Of a stretch of DNA of 64,000 nt, positions 1-34,287 are shown one piece after another. Under the pieces are notes generated by a model. The model worked only from the letters and a program-made list of their open reading frames with translations. It was not told where the DNA came from and ran no database searches. This DNA comes from a bacterium D16-50 (GTDB lineage: Bacteria; Bacillota; Clostridia; Lachnospirales; Lachnospiraceae). Position numbers and translations under genes: made by a program. The stretch is taken from NCBI GenBank assembly GCA_003612485.1, contig RAZA01000002.1:1-64000 (forward strand), read 5' to 3'. Each line of letters starts with the position of its first letter. Within the stretch, counting starts at the first letter, position 1.

Positions 1-90
1 TGGCTTTGAGCGGGTTAAAGCTTTAGTGGCATAGGCTTATTGTGCAATTTTTTAAATTTGCTCATTTATAGTAAAAAAGTTTATTTTTCC

Positions 91-119
91 TGTCACAGGG
101 CGGTCTTTGGGTTGTCTAA
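91..119 (+). promoter_or_regulatory. Candidate ECF sigma promoter
   Basis: TGTCACA at 91-97 and GTCTAA at 114-119 are separated by 16 bases and lie just upstream of the ECF sigma gene at 144. TGTCACA plus a GTC-type -10 resembles promoters of some ECF groups rather than a housekeeping promoter. Autoregulation by the downstream sigma factor is an inference. Confidence 0.45.
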
Positions 120-143
120 TGGAATGTGAGGAGGTAGAAATCC

Positions 144-989
144 ATGGAAAACACTACAAACGAAGAACTATTGGCTTTGATTGAGAGAGCCACTGCCGGA
201 GATAAAGAATCTCTGGAAAAAGTCATTGTCAGCGTACAGGATTTGGTGTTTAACCTATCGCTGCGTATGCTGGGCACTTTCCCTGACGCTGAGGACGCCA
301 CACAGGATATTCTGTTAAAGATCATAACCCATTTGTCCTCTTTTAGGGGAGAAAGCGCATTTCACACTTGGGTATTCCGCATTGCGACGAACCATCTAAA
401 AAATTATCAGAAGCATATGTTCGCAAAATTTCCTCTTAGCTTTGAATTCTATGGGGACGACATTGTAAACGGAAAAATCGATGATGTGTCCGACTTAACC
501 CAGAATGTGGAAAAAGCAATTTTAGCGGAAGAGCTGAAAATGTCCTGCACCAATGTCATGCTGCAATGTCTCGACGCCGAAAGCCGGTGCATTTTTATCT
601 TAGGGACAATGTTTCAGCTGGACAGCCGCATTGCAGGCGATATTTTGGGGATCACTCCTGAAGCCTACCGACAGCGGCTCTCAAGAATCCGCCGCAAAAT
701 GGCGGATTTCTTAATGGAATATTGCGGCGAGTACGGAAACGGAAAGTGCCGCTGTGCAAACAGAGTCAATTATGCAATCCGAAATCATAGGATTAACCCG
801 GCACAGCTGGATTTCGCGTCTGCCGTCCCGAAAGATACTATGATTGAAGTGAAACAAGCTATGGAAAGCATTGATGATCTTTCGCAGGAATTTGCCTTTT
901 GCAAAACCTATCAATCTCCGGCAAGCCTGAAAAAGTTCATCCAAAAATTCTTAGACGGAGCTTCCTATTCCGTTGTGACAAATGCTTAG
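144..989 (+). CDS. ECF-type RNA polymerase sigma factor with C-terminal extension
   Basis: The 281-residue protein would direct RNA polymerase to a small regulon. Residues about 20-95 look like sigma region 2, with the acidic DAEDATQDILLK stretch and the HTWVFRIATN stretch typical of ECF factors. Residues about 130-195 look like region 4, ending in a helix-turn-helix with ITPEAYRQRLSRIRRK. A further 85 residues follow, starting with a Cys-rich CGEYGNGKCRC segment; this is longer than a minimal ECF factor and may be a regulatory tail. The ATG at 144 follows a GAGGAGG site. It lies 12 bases before the DUF2461 gene, with which it is probably cotranscribed. No anti-sigma factor is visible. Confidence 0.85.
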   Translation: MENTTNEELLALIERATAGDKESLEKVIVSVQDLVFNLSLRMLGTFPDAEDATQDILLKIITHLSSFRGESAFHTWVFRIATNHLKNYQKHMFAKFPLSFEFYGDDIVNGKIDDVSDLTQNVEKAILAEELKMSCTNVMLQCLDAESRCIFILGTMFQLDSRIAGDILGITPEAYRQRLSRIRRKMADFLMEYCGEYGNGKCRCANRVNYAIRNHRINPAQLDFASAVPKDTMIEVKQAMESIDDLSQEFAFCKTYQSPASLKKFIQKFLDGASYSVVTNA

Positions 990-1001
990 GAGGATTGAAA
1001 A

Positions 1002-1685
1002 ATGAACACTCGGCTTATCTTGAATTACCTTACTGATTTAGGCGAGAACAATAATCGGGAATGGTATCATGAACATAAGGCAGAAAACAAAGCGGCAAAC
1101 ACAGAATTTGAAGCATTGATCGGGGCGCTGATCTTGCGCGTCGGTAAATTTGACAGCAGCGTGCTGCATAATGAACCGAAGAACCTTACCTTTAAACTGG
1201 TGAGGGATACAAGGTTCAGCCACGATAAATCGCCTTATAATCCGGCATTTCGCGCCCATATTTCTTCACAGGGAAAGCTGCCAGTCCCCGTGGGCTATTA
1301 CATTATGATAAAGCCCGGCGGACAATCATTTTTAGGTGGCGGGCTTTTTGCAGATATGTTCAAGGACGCAACCACAATGGTACGGGATTACATAGTTCAA
1401 AACGGCAGAGAGTTTGAAAACATTATTCATGAGCCGGAATTTGAGCAATATTTTGCTGTACAAGGATCGGCCCTCAAAAATGTCCCGGCGGGATATGATA
1501 AGGGACACCCACAGGCAGAATACTTCAAATTTAAGAGCTGGTATTTGGAATACCCAATCAAAGACGAAGAATTATACGATGCCGAAGCTTTTCTCATAAA
1601 GGCAACGGAACTTTTCCGCATTATGAAGCCATTTAATGATTATCTGAATAGGGCTCTTGCAGATTTTCAAATGCCCTCAAGATGA
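1002..1685 (+). CDS. DUF2461 family protein
   Basis: The 227-residue soluble protein matches the DUF2461 (TIGR02453) family: an N-terminal LNYLTDLGENNNREWYHEHK segment, a central LVRDTRFSHDKSPYNP motif and a GGQSFLGGGLF motif. The biochemical function of the family is not established. Length is normal for the family. It follows the ECF sigma gene by 12 bases with an AGGAGG site at the start codon, so the two form an operon and are probably accessory cargo of the mobile element. No signal peptide or membrane segment is seen. Confidence 0.85.
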   Translation: MNTRLILNYLTDLGENNNREWYHEHKAENKAANTEFEALIGALILRVGKFDSSVLHNEPKNLTFKLVRDTRFSHDKSPYNPAFRAHISSQGKLPVPVGYYIMIKPGGQSFLGGGLFADMFKDATTMVRDYIVQNGREFENIIHEPEFEQYFAVQGSALKNVPAGYDKGHPQAEYFKFKSWYLEYPIKDEELYDAEAFLIKATELFRIMKPFNDYLNRALADFQMPSR

Positions 1686-1689
1686 GAAA

Positions 1690-1713
1690 ATATACAAGAT
1701 GATATACAAGATG
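1690..1713 (+). repeat. Two perfect 12-bp tandem copies
   Basis: ATATACAAGATG occurs twice in a row just after the DUF2461 stop codon. The stretch 1714-1899 that follows has short broken reading frames, for instance an open run from about 1778 to 1872, and no intact gene is seen there. It looks like a decayed part of the element. Confidence 0.6.
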
Positions 1714-1899
1714 AGAGAATTTTCAACATGCGGCTGGGCACGATAACCATCCGAGAAAGCCAAAAGCTGTTATAACCTTGCATATGTGACGGATAAAATC
1801 AAAGAATCATCTTTAAATACCGCCGGTGCAACATATGGAACAAGCAGTATTACATATGATTTGAGTGAATGACAACTTTTGAGTAAGGATGGGGATTCT

Positions 1900-2055
1900 A
1901 TGGAACAACGCCAATTCTCAGAAAAGCCGAAACCCTGCCTGACAAGCGTTTTCAAAAGCGGCGAAAACGGAAGGCTGAAAGATTGCCTGACGGCGAAATG
2001 GATCGAGCTGATCAACCAAATGGAAAGAAATAAAGGGGCTGCCCCGGAGCAGTGA
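1900..2055 (+). CDS. Small protein preceding the recombinase
   Basis: A 51-residue ORF starts with MEQRQFSEKP, contains KPCLTSVFKSGENGRLKDC and an amphipathic helix TAKWIELINQMERNK, and ends before the recombinase. Its position resembles that of short conserved ORFs upstream of recombinases in Clostridia integrative elements, but the family is not recognised with certainty. The ribosome site is weak (AAGGATGGGG upstream). It could be a small regulator or an excision helper; this is a guess from context. Confidence 0.5.
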   Translation: MEQRQFSEKPKPCLTSVFKSGENGRLKDCLTAKWIELINQMERNKGAAPEQ

Positions 2056-2121
2056 TGACAAGCCGTTTCTTATGTAGGATAATCTATATAGGAGAGGGCT
2101 TGTTCTATCTCCGAAAGGGAT

Positions 2122-3681
2122 ATGAACATTAAAGTAGCTATTTATTGCCGCTTATCCGAAGAGGACAGAAACAAGGAATGTGAAACCGATGATTCGGGCA
2201 GCATACAAAACCAAAAGGCTATGCTGCTTGGGTACGCAAATGAACAAGGGTGGGAGCTTTATGATATATACAGCGATGACGACTATACCGGATCGGATCG
2301 CCGCCGCCCGGAATTTAACCGATTGATAGACGACGCGAGAAACCGCCGGTTTGATATTGTCCTCTGTAAGACACAGTCACGATTTACCCGCGAATTGGAG
2401 CTTGTAGAAAAGTACATTCATGGTCTGTTCCCGATTTGGGGGATTCGCTTTGTGAGCATTGTCGACAATGCTGACACCGCCAACAAGGGAAACAAAAAAT
2501 CCCGTCAGATCAACGGGCTGGTGAATGAATGGTACTTGGAAGATATGTCCGACAATATCCGCAGTGTTCTCACCAGCCGACGTCAAAATGGTTTTCATAT
2601 CGGTGCCTTTGCCCTTTACGGCTATAAAAAGGACCCCTGTCAAAAAGGGCACTTAATTATCGACGAAGAAGCTGCAGCCGTTGTGCGTGAGGTATTTACC
2701 CTATTTGCACAGGGTTATGGCAAAACGGCAATTGCCCGAATGCTCAATGACCGCGGGATTCCGAACCCTACCGAGTACAAGCGTCTGCACGGTCTGCGGT
2801 ACCGGCAGCCGAAGATGAAGAATAGCGCTCTTTGGAAATACTTTGCGATTTCCGATATGCTGACTAACGAAATTTATATCGGCAACATGGTTCAGGGCAG
2901 ATACGGCAGCGTCTCCTATAAGACCAAGCAGAACAAGCCGCGTCCGAGAAGCGAATGGTACATTGTGGAGGGAACCCACGAGCCCATTATCGACCGTGGG
3001 CTTTGGGATAGGGTGCAGGCGATGATCGCCGGGCGCGCAAAGCCCTTTTCGGATGGGACCATCGGTTTATTCGCAAAGAAAGTCCGCTGTGCGAATTGCG
3101 GATATACCATGCGCTCGTCAAAGAACAAGGGAAAGCATTATTTGCGGTGCTCAAACCGCCATGTGGCGAAGGATGCCTGCATAGGCTCCTTTATTTCCGT
3201 TGACCGCTTGGAGGCTATGGTCATTGCAGAGCTGAACCGCCTATCCGAGGAATATCTTGACCGAGACGCTCTTGCCCAGAATATAGGGTTTGCAGCCAAT
3301 CTGCAAGAACGGCGCAATCGGCTGATTGCCGATCTTGCCGTCTACGAAAAGCGGATGGAAGAATATTCCAAAGGCATTGGAGACATTTACATGGATAAAG
3401 TCCGGGGAATCATCAGTGAAAGTGATTTTATCGATCTGACAAAAGGCTTTACCGCTGACAAAGAGCGATTGGCCCGCGCCATGCAGGAGGGCAAAAAGCA
3501 GCTTGCCGGCTTAGATACCCGCATTGCCGCAGGAGACAACCGTGGGGAACTGGTTCGGCAGTATACCAATCCGGAACACCTGACCCGTGAAATGGTTGAA
3601 ATTTTCATAGACTATATTTCAGTAAATAAACGAATTCAGGGCACAAGGGATGTTCCCGTTGAAATCCACTGGAATTTTTGA
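2122..3681 (+). CDS. Large serine site-specific recombinase
   Basis: The 519-residue enzyme cuts and rejoins attachment sites through a serine nucleophile. The resolvase domain spans about residues 3-150, with the catalytic S12 in the AIYCRLSEED motif, DSGSIQNQK and LCKTQSRFTRE. A recombinase domain follows (about 165-270), then a zinc ribbon with C323, C326, C343 and C353, and a coiled-coil segment (about 385-475) typical of large serine integrases. Length and layout match the TnpX/TndX and SpoIVCA type. The stop is about 40 bases before cotJC coding sequence resumes, so this enzyme most likely integrated the element there and can excise it. Confidence 0.93.
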   Translation: MNIKVAIYCRLSEEDRNKECETDDSGSIQNQKAMLLGYANEQGWELYDIYSDDDYTGSDRRRPEFNRLIDDARNRRFDIVLCKTQSRFTRELELVEKYIHGLFPIWGIRFVSIVDNADTANKGNKKSRQINGLVNEWYLEDMSDNIRSVLTSRRQNGFHIGAFALYGYKKDPCQKGHLIIDEEAAAVVREVFTLFAQGYGKTAIARMLNDRGIPNPTEYKRLHGLRYRQPKMKNSALWKYFAISDMLTNEIYIGNMVQGRYGSVSYKTKQNKPRPRSEWYIVEGTHEPIIDRGLWDRVQAMIAGRAKPFSDGTIGLFAKKVRCANCGYTMRSSKNKGKHYLRCSNRHVAKDACIGSFISVDRLEAMVIAELNRLSEEYLDRDALAQNIGFAANLQERRNRLIADLAVYEKRMEEYSKGIGDIYMDKVRGIISESDFIDLTKGFTADKERLARAMQEGKKQLAGLDTRIAAGDNRGELVRQYTNPEHLTREMVEIFIDYISVNKRIQGTRDVPVEIHWNF

Positions 3682-3723
3682 GTTTACAGTCCCTTTGTTA
3701 AAATGAAAAGTTGTTCTTGGGTG

Positions 3724-3942
3724 ATTGCAGCGGAGCAAAAAGCCAGATCCACCTATGAGAACATTCTGCGTCTGATCAAGGAGCCGGATGTGTGCGAGCC
3801 CATCAAGTTCCTGCGGGCCAGAGAGATCGTGCATTTCCAGCGCTTTGGCGAAGCTCTGCGCATCACGCAGGATAGGCTGGACAGCAAGAACTTCTACGCC
3901 TTTAACCCTGCTTTTGACAGATGCGAAGACTGTGACAAATAG
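3724..3942 (+). pseudogene. cotJC: 3' fragment of spore coat protein gene cotJC
   Basis: The last 72 codons match the C-terminal end of CotJC, a manganese-catalase-like spore coat protein: AAEQKARSTYENILRLI, FLRAREIVHFQRFGEALRI (with Glu and His residues typical of the di-manganese site) and a DSKNFYAFNPAFD tail with a normal stop. The N-terminal two thirds are absent. Sequence left of 3724 in the same frame (PFVKMKSCSW) does not fit the family, where an acidic DLYEDI-type segment is expected. The frame is open back to the recombinase stop. The fragment is best read as the right half of cotJC split by the element. Whether the left half lies beyond the element cannot be seen. Confidence 0.85.
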
Positions 3943-3965
3943 GAGCAACCATAGCTGTTTGGTGG

Positions 3966-3993
3966 AGGCCGGCCTGATTAAGGCCGGCCTTTT
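3966..3993 (+). terminator. Intrinsic terminator after cotJC
   Basis: A perfect 10-bp stem, AGGCCGGCCT at 3966-3975 and again at 3981-3990 (the arm is palindromic), has a GATTA loop and is followed by TTT. It lies 24 bases after the cotJC stop. Confidence 0.75.
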
Positions 3994-4101
3994 GCCGGAT
4001 TGAAGGCTTTTCGGAAGCCTTTCATACTTGTGGGTAAGGGCAGCGAGGCAGGTTTATAAAGAATGTGCCAAAAATGACAATTCATATAGCCGTTTTTGGC
4101 A

Positions 4102-4132
4102 TTGCTTGCGAGGGAATAAAAGGTTATATAAT
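4102..4132 (+). promoter_or_regulatory. Promoter for the FAD oxidoreductase
   Basis: TTGCTT at 4102-4107 and TATATA at 4125-4130 have a 17-base spacer; TATAAT also begins at 4127. The region 4000-4199 also has an imperfect hairpin with TGCCAAAAA at 4066-4074 and its complement at 4092-4101, just upstream of the -35, which could be an operator. Confidence 0.5.
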
Positions 4133-4199
4133 AAGTAGGATAGGATAGAATCAGGCAGAGATCTGTGCAACCATGGATTTTAATTCAGGAGGAAAAAGG

Positions 4200-5615
4200 A
4201 TGAATAGGAAAGACTGCATCGATTGGAAGGGACTGGAAACCTATTTGAGCGCAGAGGTGGTGGTCTGCGGGGGAGGCAGTGCAGGAGCGTTTGCAGCTAT
4301 TGCCGCCGCCAGAGAGGGGGCTGACGTGCTTCTGGTTGAAAGTCAGGGATATCTGGGCGGCAGCGCGGTGGGGGCGCTGGTGATGCCCTATATGACCGTC
4401 AGAGTCCCCGGAGAACCCAGATGTTCCGGTTTACATAACGAGCTTGACAATAGGATCAGGGCGTACCATCAGGAAAAGCATATCCAGAATTCTTTTGATC
4501 CTATCATCCATGGGATACTATTGGAACAAATGTGCCGGGAGAGCGGAGTCCGTATATTGCTGCATGCATGTGTCTGCGGTGCAAAAACAGAGGAAGGAAT
4601 GTCCCTAGGAAGCCCGGCCTCCGGGAAAAGCAAGCGGATATGCGCCATAGCCGTGGCCTGCAAGGATGGCATCCGCAAGATAGAGGGAAAGATATTTATC
4701 GACGGCACGGGGGACGGCTCCTTGTCGGTTTTGGCCGGGGCAGGATTTGAGGCGGGGAATCCCAAGACAGGGGCCAATCAGCCCATGAGCCTGCGCTATT
4801 TCGTGGGCGGGGTGAACAAGGAAACACTGGGCCGATTTCTGGACAGTCTTGGAGATCCGGACAATGCCAGATCGGGCAAGTCGGGAGGTGGCCTTTTCGG
4901 ATGCGTGGTGGAGAGACGGGACAGCGCGCTGAAGCCCATCTTCCTGCAGGCCGTGGCAGAGGGGGATCTGTGGGAGCAGAGTATGGCCTACTGGACCATG
5001 TTTGAGATACCGGGGAGAAAGGACGAAGTGGCCTTCAACAATCCGGAATTCTTTGACCTGACGGACGCCTGTGATCCGCTGCAGCTCACCGAGCTGCAGC
5101 TGCGGGGCAGAGCTTTTATCTACAAGGAACTGGCATTTTACAAGAAATACTTCAAGGGCTTTGAAAATGCGTACATTTCTGCAATCTCCATAGTACCGGG
5201 AATCCGGGAGAGCCGCAGAATACACACAAAATATCGGCTGACGGCCATGGATGTTCTGGGCCAGAGGAAGTTCAAGGGCTGTATCAGTCAGTGCAATTAC
5301 CCCGTGGATGTACATGGCAGCGAGGAACTGTTCAGGGAAGATTTGCCTGCAGGCGATCCCCAAAAGCCTTGGTATGAGATACCCTATGACTGTCTGGTCG
5401 GCGCGGATCTGGAAAACCTGCTGGTGGCAGGCCGCTGTATCGGCGCGGACTTTGTGGCGCAGTCCTCCATACGGATTCAGATCTGCTGCCATAGCATGGG
5501 AGAAGCTGCAGGAATCGCAGCGGCCATGTGCAGTACCAAAAGCCTGCTTCCGGGACAAGTTTCGGGAGAAGAAGTGGCAGAGCGGATGAGAGAGCGGGGA
5601 GCGGATTTCGTGTGA
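4200..5615 (+). CDS. FAD-dependent oxidoreductase
   Basis: The protein has an N-terminal Rossmann dinucleotide site (VVVCGGGSAGAFAAIAAAREG, then an acidic VES end of strand 2) followed by GYLGGSAVGALV, and a C-terminal GADLENLLVAGRCIGADFVA flavin-binding motif. This is the FAD_oxidored (PF12831) family found widely in gut Firmicutes; substrates are mostly unknown. The start at 4200 is preferred over 4173 because AGGAGG at 4187-4192 is correctly spaced for it; this gives 471 residues. No membrane segment is seen. It stands alone between a promoter and the convergent kinase gene, so its context does not give a substrate. Confidence 0.85.
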   Translation: MNRKDCIDWKGLETYLSAEVVVCGGGSAGAFAAIAAAREGADVLLVESQGYLGGSAVGALVMPYMTVRVPGEPRCSGLHNELDNRIRAYHQEKHIQNSFDPIIHGILLEQMCRESGVRILLHACVCGAKTEEGMSLGSPASGKSKRICAIAVACKDGIRKIEGKIFIDGTGDGSLSVLAGAGFEAGNPKTGANQPMSLRYFVGGVNKETLGRFLDSLGDPDNARSGKSGGGLFGCVVERRDSALKPIFLQAVAEGDLWEQSMAYWTMFEIPGRKDEVAFNNPEFFDLTDACDPLQLTELQLRGRAFIYKELAFYKKYFKGFENAYISAISIVPGIRESRRIHTKYRLTAMDVLGQRKFKGCISQCNYPVDVHGSEELFREDLPAGDPQKPWYEIPYDCLVGADLENLLVAGRCIGADFVAQSSIRIQICCHSMGEAAGIAAAMCSTKSLLPGQVSGEEVAERMRERGADFV

Positions 5616-5685: not shown

Positions 5686-6669
5686 TCAGAAAATTTCAGA
5701 GGAATGATCGGGGAATAGCACATGAACATGTAAAACGGCATTCTCATAGTCTGCCCAAATCATTCCCCCCATCCGCTCTGTCAGCGCCCGGGCGATAGAC
5801 AGCCCAAGGCCGGTGGATTTCCGGCCTGAATCCACCGTGTAGAAACGGTCGAAAAGCTTTCCCGTCTGTACTTCGTCTAAAGCCGGGGCGGCATTGGAAA
5901 AGACTATTTCTCCGTTATCAGAGAGGCGGATGTCCAGATCCCCGCGGCTATACTTGATAGCGTTGCTCAAAAGGTTCGAGAATATGCGGGAGAGGGCGGA
6001 AGGATCAAGCCTCCTCAGGATCTTTTTCTCGGTGATTTGAACTTCCGGTGAGATACAGTGTTCTGTCAGAGCAGTGTAATAGGCGGCGATGCTTTCTTCC
6101 AGCGCTTCGTTCAGTGTCACAAGCGTGGGGTGTTCCTCCTCCTGAGAGGCTATGACAGAATAGCGAAACAGTTCCTCTGTCAGATCCTTCAGAGTCTCGG
6201 TGCGATTCCGTATGATTGCAATGTAGCGGGCGGAGGCCAAAGCCCCTTTTTGTTCTGCTTCCAGCAAATCCAGATAGCCGCAGATAGCGGTGAGAGGGGT
6301 ACGCAGATCATGGGAAATATTGGTGACGGCGCTTTTCAGCTCTTGGTCCCCCTGCAGGAAGCGCCTGCGCTGGGCCCGAAGCCTGACCAGCTCCCGGTTC
6401 AAGGCGGCAGCCAGATTCCGCATATGCCTATCGCCGGTAGAAATGTCGATCAAGGTGTTGGTTTCTATGTCCAGCCTTTCGGTGAAGGCCTGCTGAATCT
6501 CTTCGGCAGCCTTCTGAAGCAGCCGGATTTTTATCAATAGAATCAAAATGACCACAACCGCAGCACCTGCAAGCCCCCAGAGCCAGATCGCTCCGGGGGC
6601 AGCCGGTTTCAGGGTGACTGCCAGAACCATTTCATTCCATTGATCCCATAGACTGTTTCCTATCTTCAT
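5686..6669 (-). CDS. Sensor histidine kinase of an ABC-linked two-component system
   Basis: The 327-residue membrane kinase has a single clear membrane helix (about 28-47), a short linker, a HisKA domain with the phosphoacceptor H120 in NISHDLRTPLTA, and a HATPase domain with NLLSNAIKYS and STGLGLSIARAL. There is almost no extracellular sensor domain, so the signal is probably read through the membrane or through the adjacent transporter. It ends a gene set read on the minus strand in the order regulator, ATPase, permease, kinase, and starts 1 base after the permease. This layout is typical of systems sensing cell-envelope-active compounds. Confidence 0.88.
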   Translation of the reverse strand: MKIGNSLWDQWNEMVLAVTLKPAAPGAIWLWGLAGAAVVVILILLIKIRLLQKAAEEIQQAFTERLDIETNTLIDISTGDRHMRNLAAALNRELVRLRAQRRRFLQGDQELKSAVTNISHDLRTPLTAICGYLDLLEAEQKGALASARYIAIIRNRTETLKDLTEELFRYSVIASQEEEHPTLVTLNEALEESIAAYYTALTEHCISPEVQITEKKILRRLDPSALSRIFSNLLSNAIKYSRGDLDIRLSDNGEIVFSNAAPALDEVQTGKLFDRFYTVDSGRKSTGLGLSIARALTERMGGMIWADYENAVLHVHVLFPDHSSEIF

Positions 6670-6670
6670 G

Positions 6671-7504
6671 TCAGTTTAAATCCTTTCGGCGGAAGAAGAC
6701 GATCCCTATAGCGGTGGTTCCGATGAAAATGCTCAGAGAGGACAGCATCATTCTCAGAGGATGGGCTATCTCTGAGCTATACATCTGGAGACACTGCCCG
6801 GTGGGCAGAAAATCCACCAGAAACTGATATACATTTCGCAGATCCCCGCTCACGTATTTCGGGTTAGGCGTGGGATCTGCCATTTTCATACCTTCTTCCA
6901 TGGTTATGGTGATATTGCTGATCATTTCCGGCTCCTGCAGTGCGGTATAGAGATTGCCTGCCAAGAGCAGCAGTCCTAAGAACAATAGGATTGTCAGAAT
7001 CTGGGAGAGAGCTTTGTGGGTGAAAAGCATACTCACGAGGGTAAAGATGGCGGTATAGGCGGCTACATATAACAGACTGATCAGCAAGTAGACCGCCAGC
7101 TTCTGGAAGGACTGCCATGGACCTATAAAGGGAATTCCTGCCAGTCCTCCTGCGAGGCATACCAGAAGCATCGAGAGGATTGCCGTAAGGCTCACGATCA
7201 GGTTGGAGAGATAGATTTCAAGCCGCCCGTGGCCGGTTATGATCTTGTTGCGCATGGTGCCGTCACGGTATTCCGTGTTTATGTGAAGACTGATAAAGAC
7301 GGCACAGAATAGGCCGATATGCAGACTGTAGCTGTAATAGTAGCGATCCAGCGTGTAAGCGTATTCCGACATTTCAGGCAGGAGAGCCTGCCTGCAGCTG
7401 TTCAGCATCGATATCAATGTATAGAGCAGCAGGGCGATTAAGCATATCCAGAAAATTTTGTCTTTTTTCAGTCGGGCAAGTCCGGCAGATATGAGTTTTT
7501 TCAT
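6671..7504 (-). CDS. ABC-2 type transporter permease
   Basis: The 277-residue protein has about six hydrophobic segments: one near the N terminus (WICLIALLLYTLISM), others around residues 65-75, 100-130, 140-165, 170-195, and one at the C terminus. It pairs with the ATPase encoded just upstream. The ATG at 7504 (MKKLISAGLARLKKDK) lies 2 bases past the ATPase stop codon and has AAGGAAGG 11 bases upstream; an alternative GTG at 7516 sits directly on that site and is less likely. The likely substrate is a peptide antibiotic or lipid, as for lantibiotic-immunity permeases, but the sequence does not settle this. Confidence 0.82.
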   Translation of the reverse strand: MKKLISAGLARLKKDKIFWICLIALLLYTLISMLNSCRQALLPEMSEYAYTLDRYYYSYSLHIGLFCAVFISLHINTEYRDGTMRNKIITGHGRLEIYLSNLIVSLTAILSMLLVCLAGGLAGIPFIGPWQSFQKLAVYLLISLLYVAAYTAIFTLVSMLFTHKALSQILTILLFLGLLLLAGNLYTALQEPEMISNITITMEEGMKMADPTPNPKYVSGDLRNVYQFLVDFLPTGQCLQMYSSEIAHPLRMMLSSLSIFIGTTAIGIVFFRRKDLN

Positions 7505-32955: not shown

Positions 32956-34287
32956 ATGAACAGTGACGAAATCATGCAGGGAGAGTCCCTGCTGGAGGCA
33001 TACGCCCGGATGGGCATCTCAAAGGAGGTCTACGAATACGGAAACAGGATCTGGGATTCCCTGCAGGAGCGCTTTCAGGATGTGGACCGCATCGCTGAGT
33101 ATAATCAGCTGAAGGTCATAAGGGCCATGCAGGAATGTCAGGTCAGCGAGGCCTGCCTTTTAGGAACCACGGGATACGGCTATGACGATCTGGGAAGAGA
33201 CACATTGGAGGAGGTTTATGCCAAGGTGTTCCATACGGAGGATGCGCTGGTAAGGCCCCAGATCACCTGCGGAACCCATGCGCTGGCGCTGGCGCTGATG
33301 AGCAATCTGCGTCCCGGGGACGAGCTGCTGTCCCCGGTGGGAAAACCCTATGACACATTGGAGGAGGTCATCGGCATTCGGCCCTCCAGAGGCTCTCTTG
33401 CAGAATACGGGATCACCTACCGCCAAGTGGATCTGCTCCCGGAGGGCGGTTTTGATTATGACGGCATAAGGAAGGCCGTGGGTCCCCGTACCAGACTGGT
33501 GACAATCCAGCGCTCAAAGGGCTACCAGACCCGTCCCACCCTTTCCGTGGACAGAATCGGAGAGCTTATCACCTTCATCAAGGGGATTAAGCCGGACGTG
33601 ATCTGCATGGTGGACAACTGCTATGGGGAATTCGTGGAGACCAAAGAACCCAGCGATGTAGGCGCCGACATGGTGGTGGGATCCTTGATCAAGAATCCCG
33701 GCGGAGGGCTGGCCCCCATCGGCGGATACATTGCCGGGAAAAGAGAATGTGTGGAAAATGCGGCGTACCGCCTCACCTCTCCGGGACTGGGAAAGGAGGT
33801 GGGAGCGTCTTTGGGCATTCTGAAGGATTTTTATCAGGGACTGTTCCTTGCGCCCACCGTAACGGCGTCCGCCCTGAAGGGGGCGGTCTTTGCGGCCAAT
33901 CTGTTTGAGGGCCTTGGCTTTCCGGTGGTTCCCTCCGGCAGCGAGAGCAGACACGACATCATTCAGGCAGTCACCTTCGGCACGGCGGAGGGGGTCATCG
34001 CCTTCTGTCAGGGCATTCAGGCCGCGGCACCTGTGGACAGCCATGTGTCGCCCCAGCCCTCGGACATGCCCGGCTATGATGCAAAGGTGATCATGGCGGC
34101 AGGAGCCTTTGTGTCGGGTTCCTCCATCGAGCTTTCCGCCGACGGCCCCATCCGCCCGCCCTATGCGGTCTACTTTCAGGGAGGTCTTACCTGGCCCCAC
34201 GCCAAGGCCGGCATACTCAGAGCGCTCCAATCCCTTGCCGACAAGGGGCTGGCGGATGGCATTTTATGTAGAAAAAACTCAAAATAA
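32956..34287 (+). CDS. Methionine gamma-lyase family protein (aluminium-resistance type)
   Basis: The 443-residue PLP-dependent protein resembles the YnbB/aluminium-resistance family, members of the Cys/Met metabolism PLP fold. Motifs seen are ITCGTHALALALMSNLRPGD, VDNCYGEFVET and GSLIKNPGGGLAPIGGYIAG, where the Lys in LIKNPG is the likely PLP lysine. Substrate is not established for this family. It sits in the conserved stretch after miaA and before a DUF4321 gene. Confidence 0.88.
   Translation: MNSDEIMQGESLLEAYARMGISKEVYEYGNRIWDSLQERFQDVDRIAEYNQLKVIRAMQECQVSEACLLGTTGYGYDDLGRDTLEEVYAKVFHTEDALVRPQITCGTHALALALMSNLRPGDELLSPVGKPYDTLEEVIGIRPSRGSLAEYGITYRQVDLLPEGGFDYDGIRKAVGPRTRLVTIQRSKGYQTRPTLSVDRIGELITFIKGIKPDVICMVDNCYGEFVETKEPSDVGADMVVGSLIKNPGGGLAPIGGYIAGKRECVENAAYRLTSPGLGKEVGASLGILKDFYQGLFLAPTVTASALKGAVFAANLFEGLGFPVVPSGSESRHDIIQAVTFGTAEGVIAFCQGIQAAAPVDSHVSPQPSDMPGYDAKVIMAAGAFVSGSSIELSADGPIRPPYAVYFQGGLTWPHAKAGILRALQSLADKGLADGILCRKNSK

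Follow-up and report, generated by a model that had tools for sequence, protein, structure and literature searches.

The skin element that interrupts sigK in Bacillus subtilis carries a sigma-E promoter followed by the 64-aa skr gene, which encodes a recombination directionality factor (RDF), and then by spoIVCA (PMC6957869). In Clostridioides difficile, the skin element of sigK (CD1231, CD1234) also employs a small RDF, CD1234, under the control of sigma-E and SpoIIID (PMC5025042). Intervening elements of phage or non-phage type have additionally been described as gin in gerE of B. cereus ATCC10987, SP-beta in spsM and phi3T in kamA (PMC5595907, PMC6957869). The split genes named in the accessible text of one of these sources are sigK, spoIVFB, spoVR, spsM, gerE and kamA, and cotJC is not among them (PMC6957869). 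A search for reports of split or excised cotJC at the title and abstract level, in literature comprising few subscription papers and no preprints, returned none; the nearest case comes from C. difficile R20291, where deletion of phi027 took a neighbouring CotJC-like gene with it (PMC11222575).

The sequence examined here (the window) comprises 64 000 nucleotides, bases 1-64000 of contig C88 from a draft genome of 163 contigs and 4.96 Mb. Genomes, loci and contigs are labelled G, L and C, respectively, with G000 denoting the genome of the window; positions given without a contig or locus are those of the window. In G000, cotJC is cut into three by two serine-recombinase elements in series. Its designation as a coat gene derives from its operon, its Pfam family and the literature. 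Whereas gin, SP-beta and phi3T involve one element per gene, as does yin, another intervening element that reportedly interrupts yabG, cotJC holds several.

A PF05067 profile search of G000 identified three consecutive cotJC pieces on C121, C124 and C88. The 5' piece (C121:210290-210481, profile positions 1-65) directly follows cotJA and cotJB, the middle piece lies at C124:162-398 (profile 61-152) and the 3' third, belonging to a manganese-catalase-like spore coat protein, occupies 3727-3942 on the forward strand of the window (profile 147-197), with in-frame CotJC similarity beginning at 3724 and the gene stop ending at 3942. The initial annotation had noted that N-terminal cotJC was absent left of 3724; this holds for the window, and the missing part was found elsewhere in G000 as two pieces. 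It had also proposed to look for an equally oriented 5' half and for a short core common to both junctions; these exist, the 5' part in the form of two pieces separated by two elements. An intact cotJC elsewhere, which it named as evidence against the split, was not found by the profile search of G000, where the sole other PF05067 match was weak (C99, E 6e-4).

The C121 piece breaks after LTDIG, the C124 piece begins GTEELAH and ends after EDLAA, and the window piece begins AAEQKAR. Joining the pieces at their shared cores produced 615 nt, in frame, encoding 204 aa, of which 178 were identical to the uninterrupted protein of the relative G044. Each of the two junction pairs restores the reading frame, such that a gene of the sporulation programme is divided into in-frame parts with a common core at both junctions. 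The core of element 1 is the GG of codon 62 or, alternatively, the common TGAAG a few bases on, either of which keeps the frame. For element 2, junction comparison identified the core GCAGCGGA (3727-3734, forward strand), common to attL on C124, whilst the element-side arm of attR, GTTGTTCTTGGGTGATT (3710-3726, forward strand), is an inverted relative of the arm that follows attL on C124. Comparison of cores and arms found the element arms to be inverted at the junctions of both elements, each of which has its own site-specific recombinase adjoining a junction. The join between C121 and C124 is a putative one, based on complementary pieces and att arms.

The far end of element 2 lies outside the window, as the window starts at base 1 of C88. 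This contig break is explained by an IS-like insertion within element 2, whose opposite ends form the edges of C124 and of the window (1-71, right end) and which has the 7-bp target-site duplication TAAAAAA on both sides (72-78 in the window). A complete copy on C93 (L014, 5173-6521, 1346 bp) has inverted ends, a 7-bp duplication ATAATAA and a 395-aa frame that we take from its appearance to be a transposase; related IS-like ends are present on C88, C106, C116 and C124 of G000. Given this bridge and its matching duplications, element 2 consists of approximately 95 bp, the IS and window positions 72-3726, ending at 3726 with a size of ~5 kb. All its predicted features are on the forward strand. 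Domain searches identified two cargo genes, encoding a 281-aa sigma-70 family (ECF-like) protein (144-989) and a DUF2461 protein (1002-1685). These are followed by a motif resembling a mother-cell (sigma-E-type) promoter, ATA-N17-CATATGAT (1833-1860), a 51-aa ORF that is conserved upstream of the recombinase and is a candidate RDF (1900-2055), and a 519-aa large serine recombinase of the site-C group defined below (2122-3681). The interval originally annotated, 2122-3942, captured the recombinase and the cotJC tail but omitted the partner ORF, the promoter-like site and the cargo at 144-1685. Its description of the recombinase as intact was borne out by an ORF with Resolvase, Recombinase, Zn-ribbon and DUF4368 domains, and the stop codon, placed about 40 bases before the in-frame 3' part of cotJC, is 42 bases before 3724.

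The layout of element 2 resembles that of B. subtilis skin, as far as the latter is described in the sources available, in that a serine recombinase lies beside a split mother-cell gene with a small ORF directly upstream behind a sigma-E promoter, a putative one in element 2. It differs in that the target is a coat gene and not a sigma factor, that site-C elements cross genera and that several elements may occupy one gene. A large serine recombinase beside the 3' part, together with a small RDF (a candidate one in element 2), is also the arrangement reported for C. difficile skin, the likeness being one of layout. The domain set of the element 2 recombinase is that of the TndX/TnpX type. Its DUF4368 end and the GA crossover dinucleotide, a candidate here, suggest a relationship with the enzymes of Tn4451/Tn5397-type elements (TnpX/TndX). 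Published work mentions a GA junction for Tn5397 (PMC11222575), whilst DUF4368 is reported to typify a multi-targeting clade and to occur rarely among recombinases that are site-specific (PMC10083194).

Element 1 extends over ~39 kb of C121, if it reaches the contig end, plus 6.8 kb of C124. Its recombinase is a 604-aa ORF on C121 that reads toward the break (attL). The element encodes a type IV secretion system (T4SS) coupling protein, a Toprim/DUF3991 protein, ParB, a ParA-like protein, a SpaA-type surface protein (C121:219901-228999 being left out of this inventory) and a very large helicase/methylase-type protein. Because of its conjugation-type genes, element 1 looks like an ICE. Upstream of its recombinase CATANNNT is present, and no ATA was found at the right distance. 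The initial view of one element splitting cotJC was correct as to the split but not as to the number: there are two elements at sites that recur in relatives, and the first appears ICE-like, with no such promoter found.

Splits of cotJC were not confined to G000. Our genus survey comprised 61 genomes including G000, 54 with a PF05067 match, and revealed two-sided splits in six (G000, G012, G016, G022, G033 and G057) and one side of a split in five more (G010, G018, G019, G023 and G026). A family survey covered 298 genomes of at least 90 % completeness, of which 190 were PF05067-positive; the 63 with a weak best match were re-searched, with the other 127 positives outside the re-search, and sites A, B and C, but not D, were scored by profile boundaries. 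At least 50 of the 190 carried two-sided splits (22 at B, 14 at A, 10 at C, three at A+B and one at A+C, all among the 63 re-searched). The rest of the 63 comprised 11 one-sided cases, among them G167 with its weak match and the site-spanning G199 and G222, as well as two that were neither. Physical piece order was visible in the single-contig genomes G294 and G326, and double splits were present on one contig in Blautia sp. An249 (all three pieces), L163 (likewise) and G230 (A+B). The breakpoint in an isolate of Roseburia faecis, M72, matched those of other split genomes. Among cultured commensals, An249 is split at sites B and C (defined below), and M72 and Clostridium fessum SNUG30386 at site C.

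The breakpoints fall at four sites: A near codons 31-33 (GGPDGE), B near codons 62-65 (DIGTEELAH), C at codons 135-136 (AAEQKAR) and D after codon 176 (HFQRFGEA). Site D was recognised because several site-C tails stop there with common foreign arms. It was identified at nine loci, plus L084 of G278, which has the same arm after a site-B break; a frameshift suspected in L084 proved to be the site-D break itself. Both sides of site D were visible only in L139, and L185 of G357 is broken at B, C and D, with D seen from one side. CotJC is homologous to the solved manganese catalases 1JKU, 6J42 and 4R42, and we take its residues E35, E65, H68, E136 and H169 to be the counterparts of the catalase metal ligands; all four sites would accordingly lie in or beside these putative manganese-ligand motifs. 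Among 32 intact genes, the four site regions were among the seven best conserved 21-nt windows. Windows that we centred on the sites reached conservation percentiles of 88 for A, 96 for B and 99 for C; that for D, mis-centred at codon 177, reached 16. Separately, spoIIID appeared to be split near codons 34-40 in G021 (C89:20660-20779 and 33867-34007, 13 kb apart on one contig), and G008 may resemble it.

Pairwise identity and N-terminal motifs grouped the 41 recombinase ORFs of the fetched split loci by site. A scan with 11 site-C recombinases as query confirmed at least 528 relatives, of which the best 80 were kept, three of these (L120, L124 and L159) being contigs of seed genomes. A cotJC piece broken at site C was present in 75 of these best 80 of at least 528; the other five (L114, L138, L171, L178 and L186) were without one, several of them at contig ends. 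Hosts among the best 80 included Lachnospiraceae, Oscillospiraceae and Anaerotignum. Unlike the multi-targeting DUF4368 clade, the site-C group is thus found at a single codon of cotJC in 75 of 80 loci. At codon 136, the GA was identical in attL and attR in all 21 site-C junction pairs, making it the candidate crossover dinucleotide.

Several loci displayed recombinases of altered structure. In L087 (G280), a site-C recombinase broken over several frames beside attR is accompanied by an intact copy further in (960-2511 and 3557-5116), which may reflect a tandem pair of elements sharing the site. The recombinase of L086 (G348; 5719-6999) is without ~100 residues but keeps its C-terminal end, and those of L080, L072 and L085 are also shortened. 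The G348 gap presumably falls where other integrases have their coiled coil. Excision can become independent of the RDF through mutations in the coiled-coil motif (PMC5025042), and the G348 enzyme may thus be an excision-biased natural variant. Truncated recombinases in L072, L078 and L085 may be a sign of dead elements. L078 (G351:C99) is a 1.6-kb site-B element between cotJC pieces 655-855 and 2429-2836, with two recognisable genes, one for a Spo0A C-terminal-domain protein (PF08769, E 5e-31) and one for a 305-aa recombinase without the Zn-ribbon; a self-contained sporulation-sensing excision unit is possible. Such cargo was rejected as a general link to sporulation, being inside the element in one of 47 genomes (G351), a count from which incompletely assembled elements could hide more. 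Extra Spo0A C-terminal-domain matches were scattered in G320 (eight) and G176 (five). PF08769 is reportedly enriched on Firmicutes mobile elements (PMC6907783).

In 67 of 92 site-C loci a small ORF was detected upstream of the recombinase, usually at a distance of 66-149 bp, with no match in the other 25. Columns F18, W34 and E42 were invariant among 24 aligned sequences, and an AlphaFold2 model comprised one helix with a mean pLDDT of 69. No credible match was obtained in Pfam, NCBIfam or PHROG, and our guess of a known family, TnpW, was discarded for that reason. By analogy with the skin elements, the 51-aa protein is possibly a directionality factor.

Within 130 bp upstream of the small ORF, CATANNNT was present in 61 of 64 loci and ATA-N15..18-CATANNNT in 53 of 64, compared to a mean of 0.9 and a maximum of four in dinucleotide-shuffled controls; the spacer was 17 in 51 of 54 ATA-form matches. 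ATA-N17-CATANNNT occurred in 51 of the 64 site-C loci versus eight of 860 background ORFs (at least 120 aa, same 80 loci), although the 64 loci are related by descent and hence not independent. Upstream of cotJA (n=53), AC-N15..17-CATANNNTA was found in 38 cases and the ATA form in one, with the AC form in seven of the 860 background ORFs. The host gene spoIIID, which is sigma-E-dependent, served as a control and carried ATA-N15..18-CATANNNT in 23 of 30 relatives, with a spacer of 16 in 21; spoIVA was a weak control (5/22; shuffle mean 1.0). By the consensus sequences of these factors, we read the ATA form as sigma-E-type and the cotJA motif as sigma-K-type. A sigma-70-like promoter was considered and rejected, as it was not enriched. 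The ATA form was present at four of 14 site-B, one of five B' and none of 10 site-A recombinases. The small ORF and recombinase of site-C elements thus look like one transcription unit behind a putative mother-cell-type promoter, in contrast to C. difficile skin, for which a constitutive recombinase is described.

Before pieces were counted, L058, L060, L061 and L062 (intact or edge-cut) and the seed-genome contigs L120, L124 and L159 were dropped, leaving 171 cotJC pieces from 128 loci. After trimming to the sites, three of the 171 contained stops, which by eye were element-side in two and the natural end in one; no piece had an internal stop in its cotJC part (stops were scored, frameshifts not systematically), an absence that alone proves little given that many insertions are recent. 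Four of 89 C-terminal pieces overran the usual end (L098, L102, L121 and L190). In most compared pairs cotJC dS was saturated or high and the recombinase little diverged, indicative of recent transfer; the recombinases of C. fessum and Diplocloster are one change apart. In the pair L181/L187, by comparison, 49.5 synonymous and 6.5 nonsynonymous changes were counted over ~200 codons (5' cotJC dS 0.57, dN 0.008; 3' cotJC dS 0.32, dN 0.027; combined dN/dS ~0.03). The recombinase of this pair had a dS of 0.35 and was itself constrained (dN/dS 0.07). Element and gene being similarly diverged, this points to constraint on cotJC while split, and the strong constraint suggested comes from one fairly clean orthologous pair in which L181 has an inverted flank. 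Two further pairs, G016/G026 (cotJC dS 0.36, dN 0.006; recombinase dS 0.11) and L174/L179 (cotJC dS 0.20-0.22, dN 0-0.02; recombinase dS 0.68), were set aside as clean vertical pairs and are supportive only, as element and host divergence differ. L174 and L179 belong to close hosts with the same insertion, yet the recombinase is far more diverged than cotJC (dS 0.68 versus 0.23) and may have been exchanged.

We consider it likely that these elements are of the skin or gin kind and that they leave the mother-cell chromosome ahead of cotJ transcription, so that cotJABC would be intact. In a growing cell cotJC would be silent, and the split would cost little as a result. Early in sporulation, the sigma-E-type promoter at 1833-1860 would drive the candidate directionality factor (1900-2055) and the serine recombinase (2122-3681), and both proteins would bring about recombination between attL and attR, centred on the GA of codon 136 (Glu), removing element 2. 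The recombinase of element 1 would likewise take out element 1 near codon 62, presumably timed alike. The sigma-K-type promoter before cotJA would then yield an intact cotJABC transcript late in the mother cell, whilst the forespore chromosome would retain both elements. Excision is predicted from sequence for both elements, on good though indirect grounds for element 2 and on weaker ones for element 1. Between developmental excision and gene disruption, both entertained by the initial annotation, site-C dedication, the promoter motif and the stop-free pieces, constrained in one orthologous pair, favour the former for element 2.

The main competing explanation invokes ordinary ICEs or mobilizable elements, for which conserved cotJC codons would serve as attB; the gene would be disabled while they are in place, with low-frequency excision for transfer and no link to sporulation. 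Near-identical recombinases in different genera speak for recent transfer, element 1 bears conjugation-type genes and the promoter motif is mostly absent at sites A and B. CotJC may also be dispensable, as two C. difficile CotJC homologue mutants are reported with reduced catalase and no significant coat defect (PMC11222575). We nevertheless judge this explanation unlikely, given the mother-cell-type promoter motif before the site-C small ORF and recombinase and the apparent constraint on split cotJC in the orthologous pair. It would also leave 50 of 190 genomes without a full-length PF05067 match, yet none of the pieces has an internal stop.

Two other accounts carry far less weight. Separate production of the pieces, assembling into a working protein without DNA rearrangement, could draw on the in-frame ATG just before the core in some 3' pieces (3703 in the window; L048), but the breakpoints lie in or beside putative metal-ligand motifs and the L181/L187 recombinase is itself under constraint, which makes it very improbable. 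Least credible is that misassembly or unrelated fragments account for the pieces, the intact gene being missing from the draft. The 163 contigs of G000 would allow for this; however, the same breakpoints occur in the single-contig genomes and in the isolates Blautia An249 and R. faecis M72, and common cores, arms and the IS duplication argue against it.

Returning to developmental excision, a broader reading is put forward tentatively, as possible rather than probable. cotJC may act as a docking gene with four sockets, where separate recombinase clades each target one conserved manganese-ligand motif, one to three elements can reside together and the gene would be restored only after the departure of every one of them. 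Timed mother-cell excision would repay the host with a working coat gene and give the elements cost-free circle formation, perhaps transfer, whilst the spore keeps the integrated copies.

The cotJC insertions would represent a new and unusually rich form of sporulation gene-intervening element. Known developmental splits in spore formers, in the literature covered, concern a handful of genes with one element each; cotJC is split in at least a quarter (50/190) of the PF05067-positive genomes of one family, and the gene offers no fewer than four target motifs, with two or three breaks in some cases. Gene fragments of this kind are easily misread as pseudogenes. Their small ORFs, as a new family of candidate directionality factors, and their recombinases, with a single codon as target, are also of interest for genome engineering. 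For the biology of these spore formers, the elements supply many natural replicates, some in cultured isolates, of how mobile elements become tied to development.
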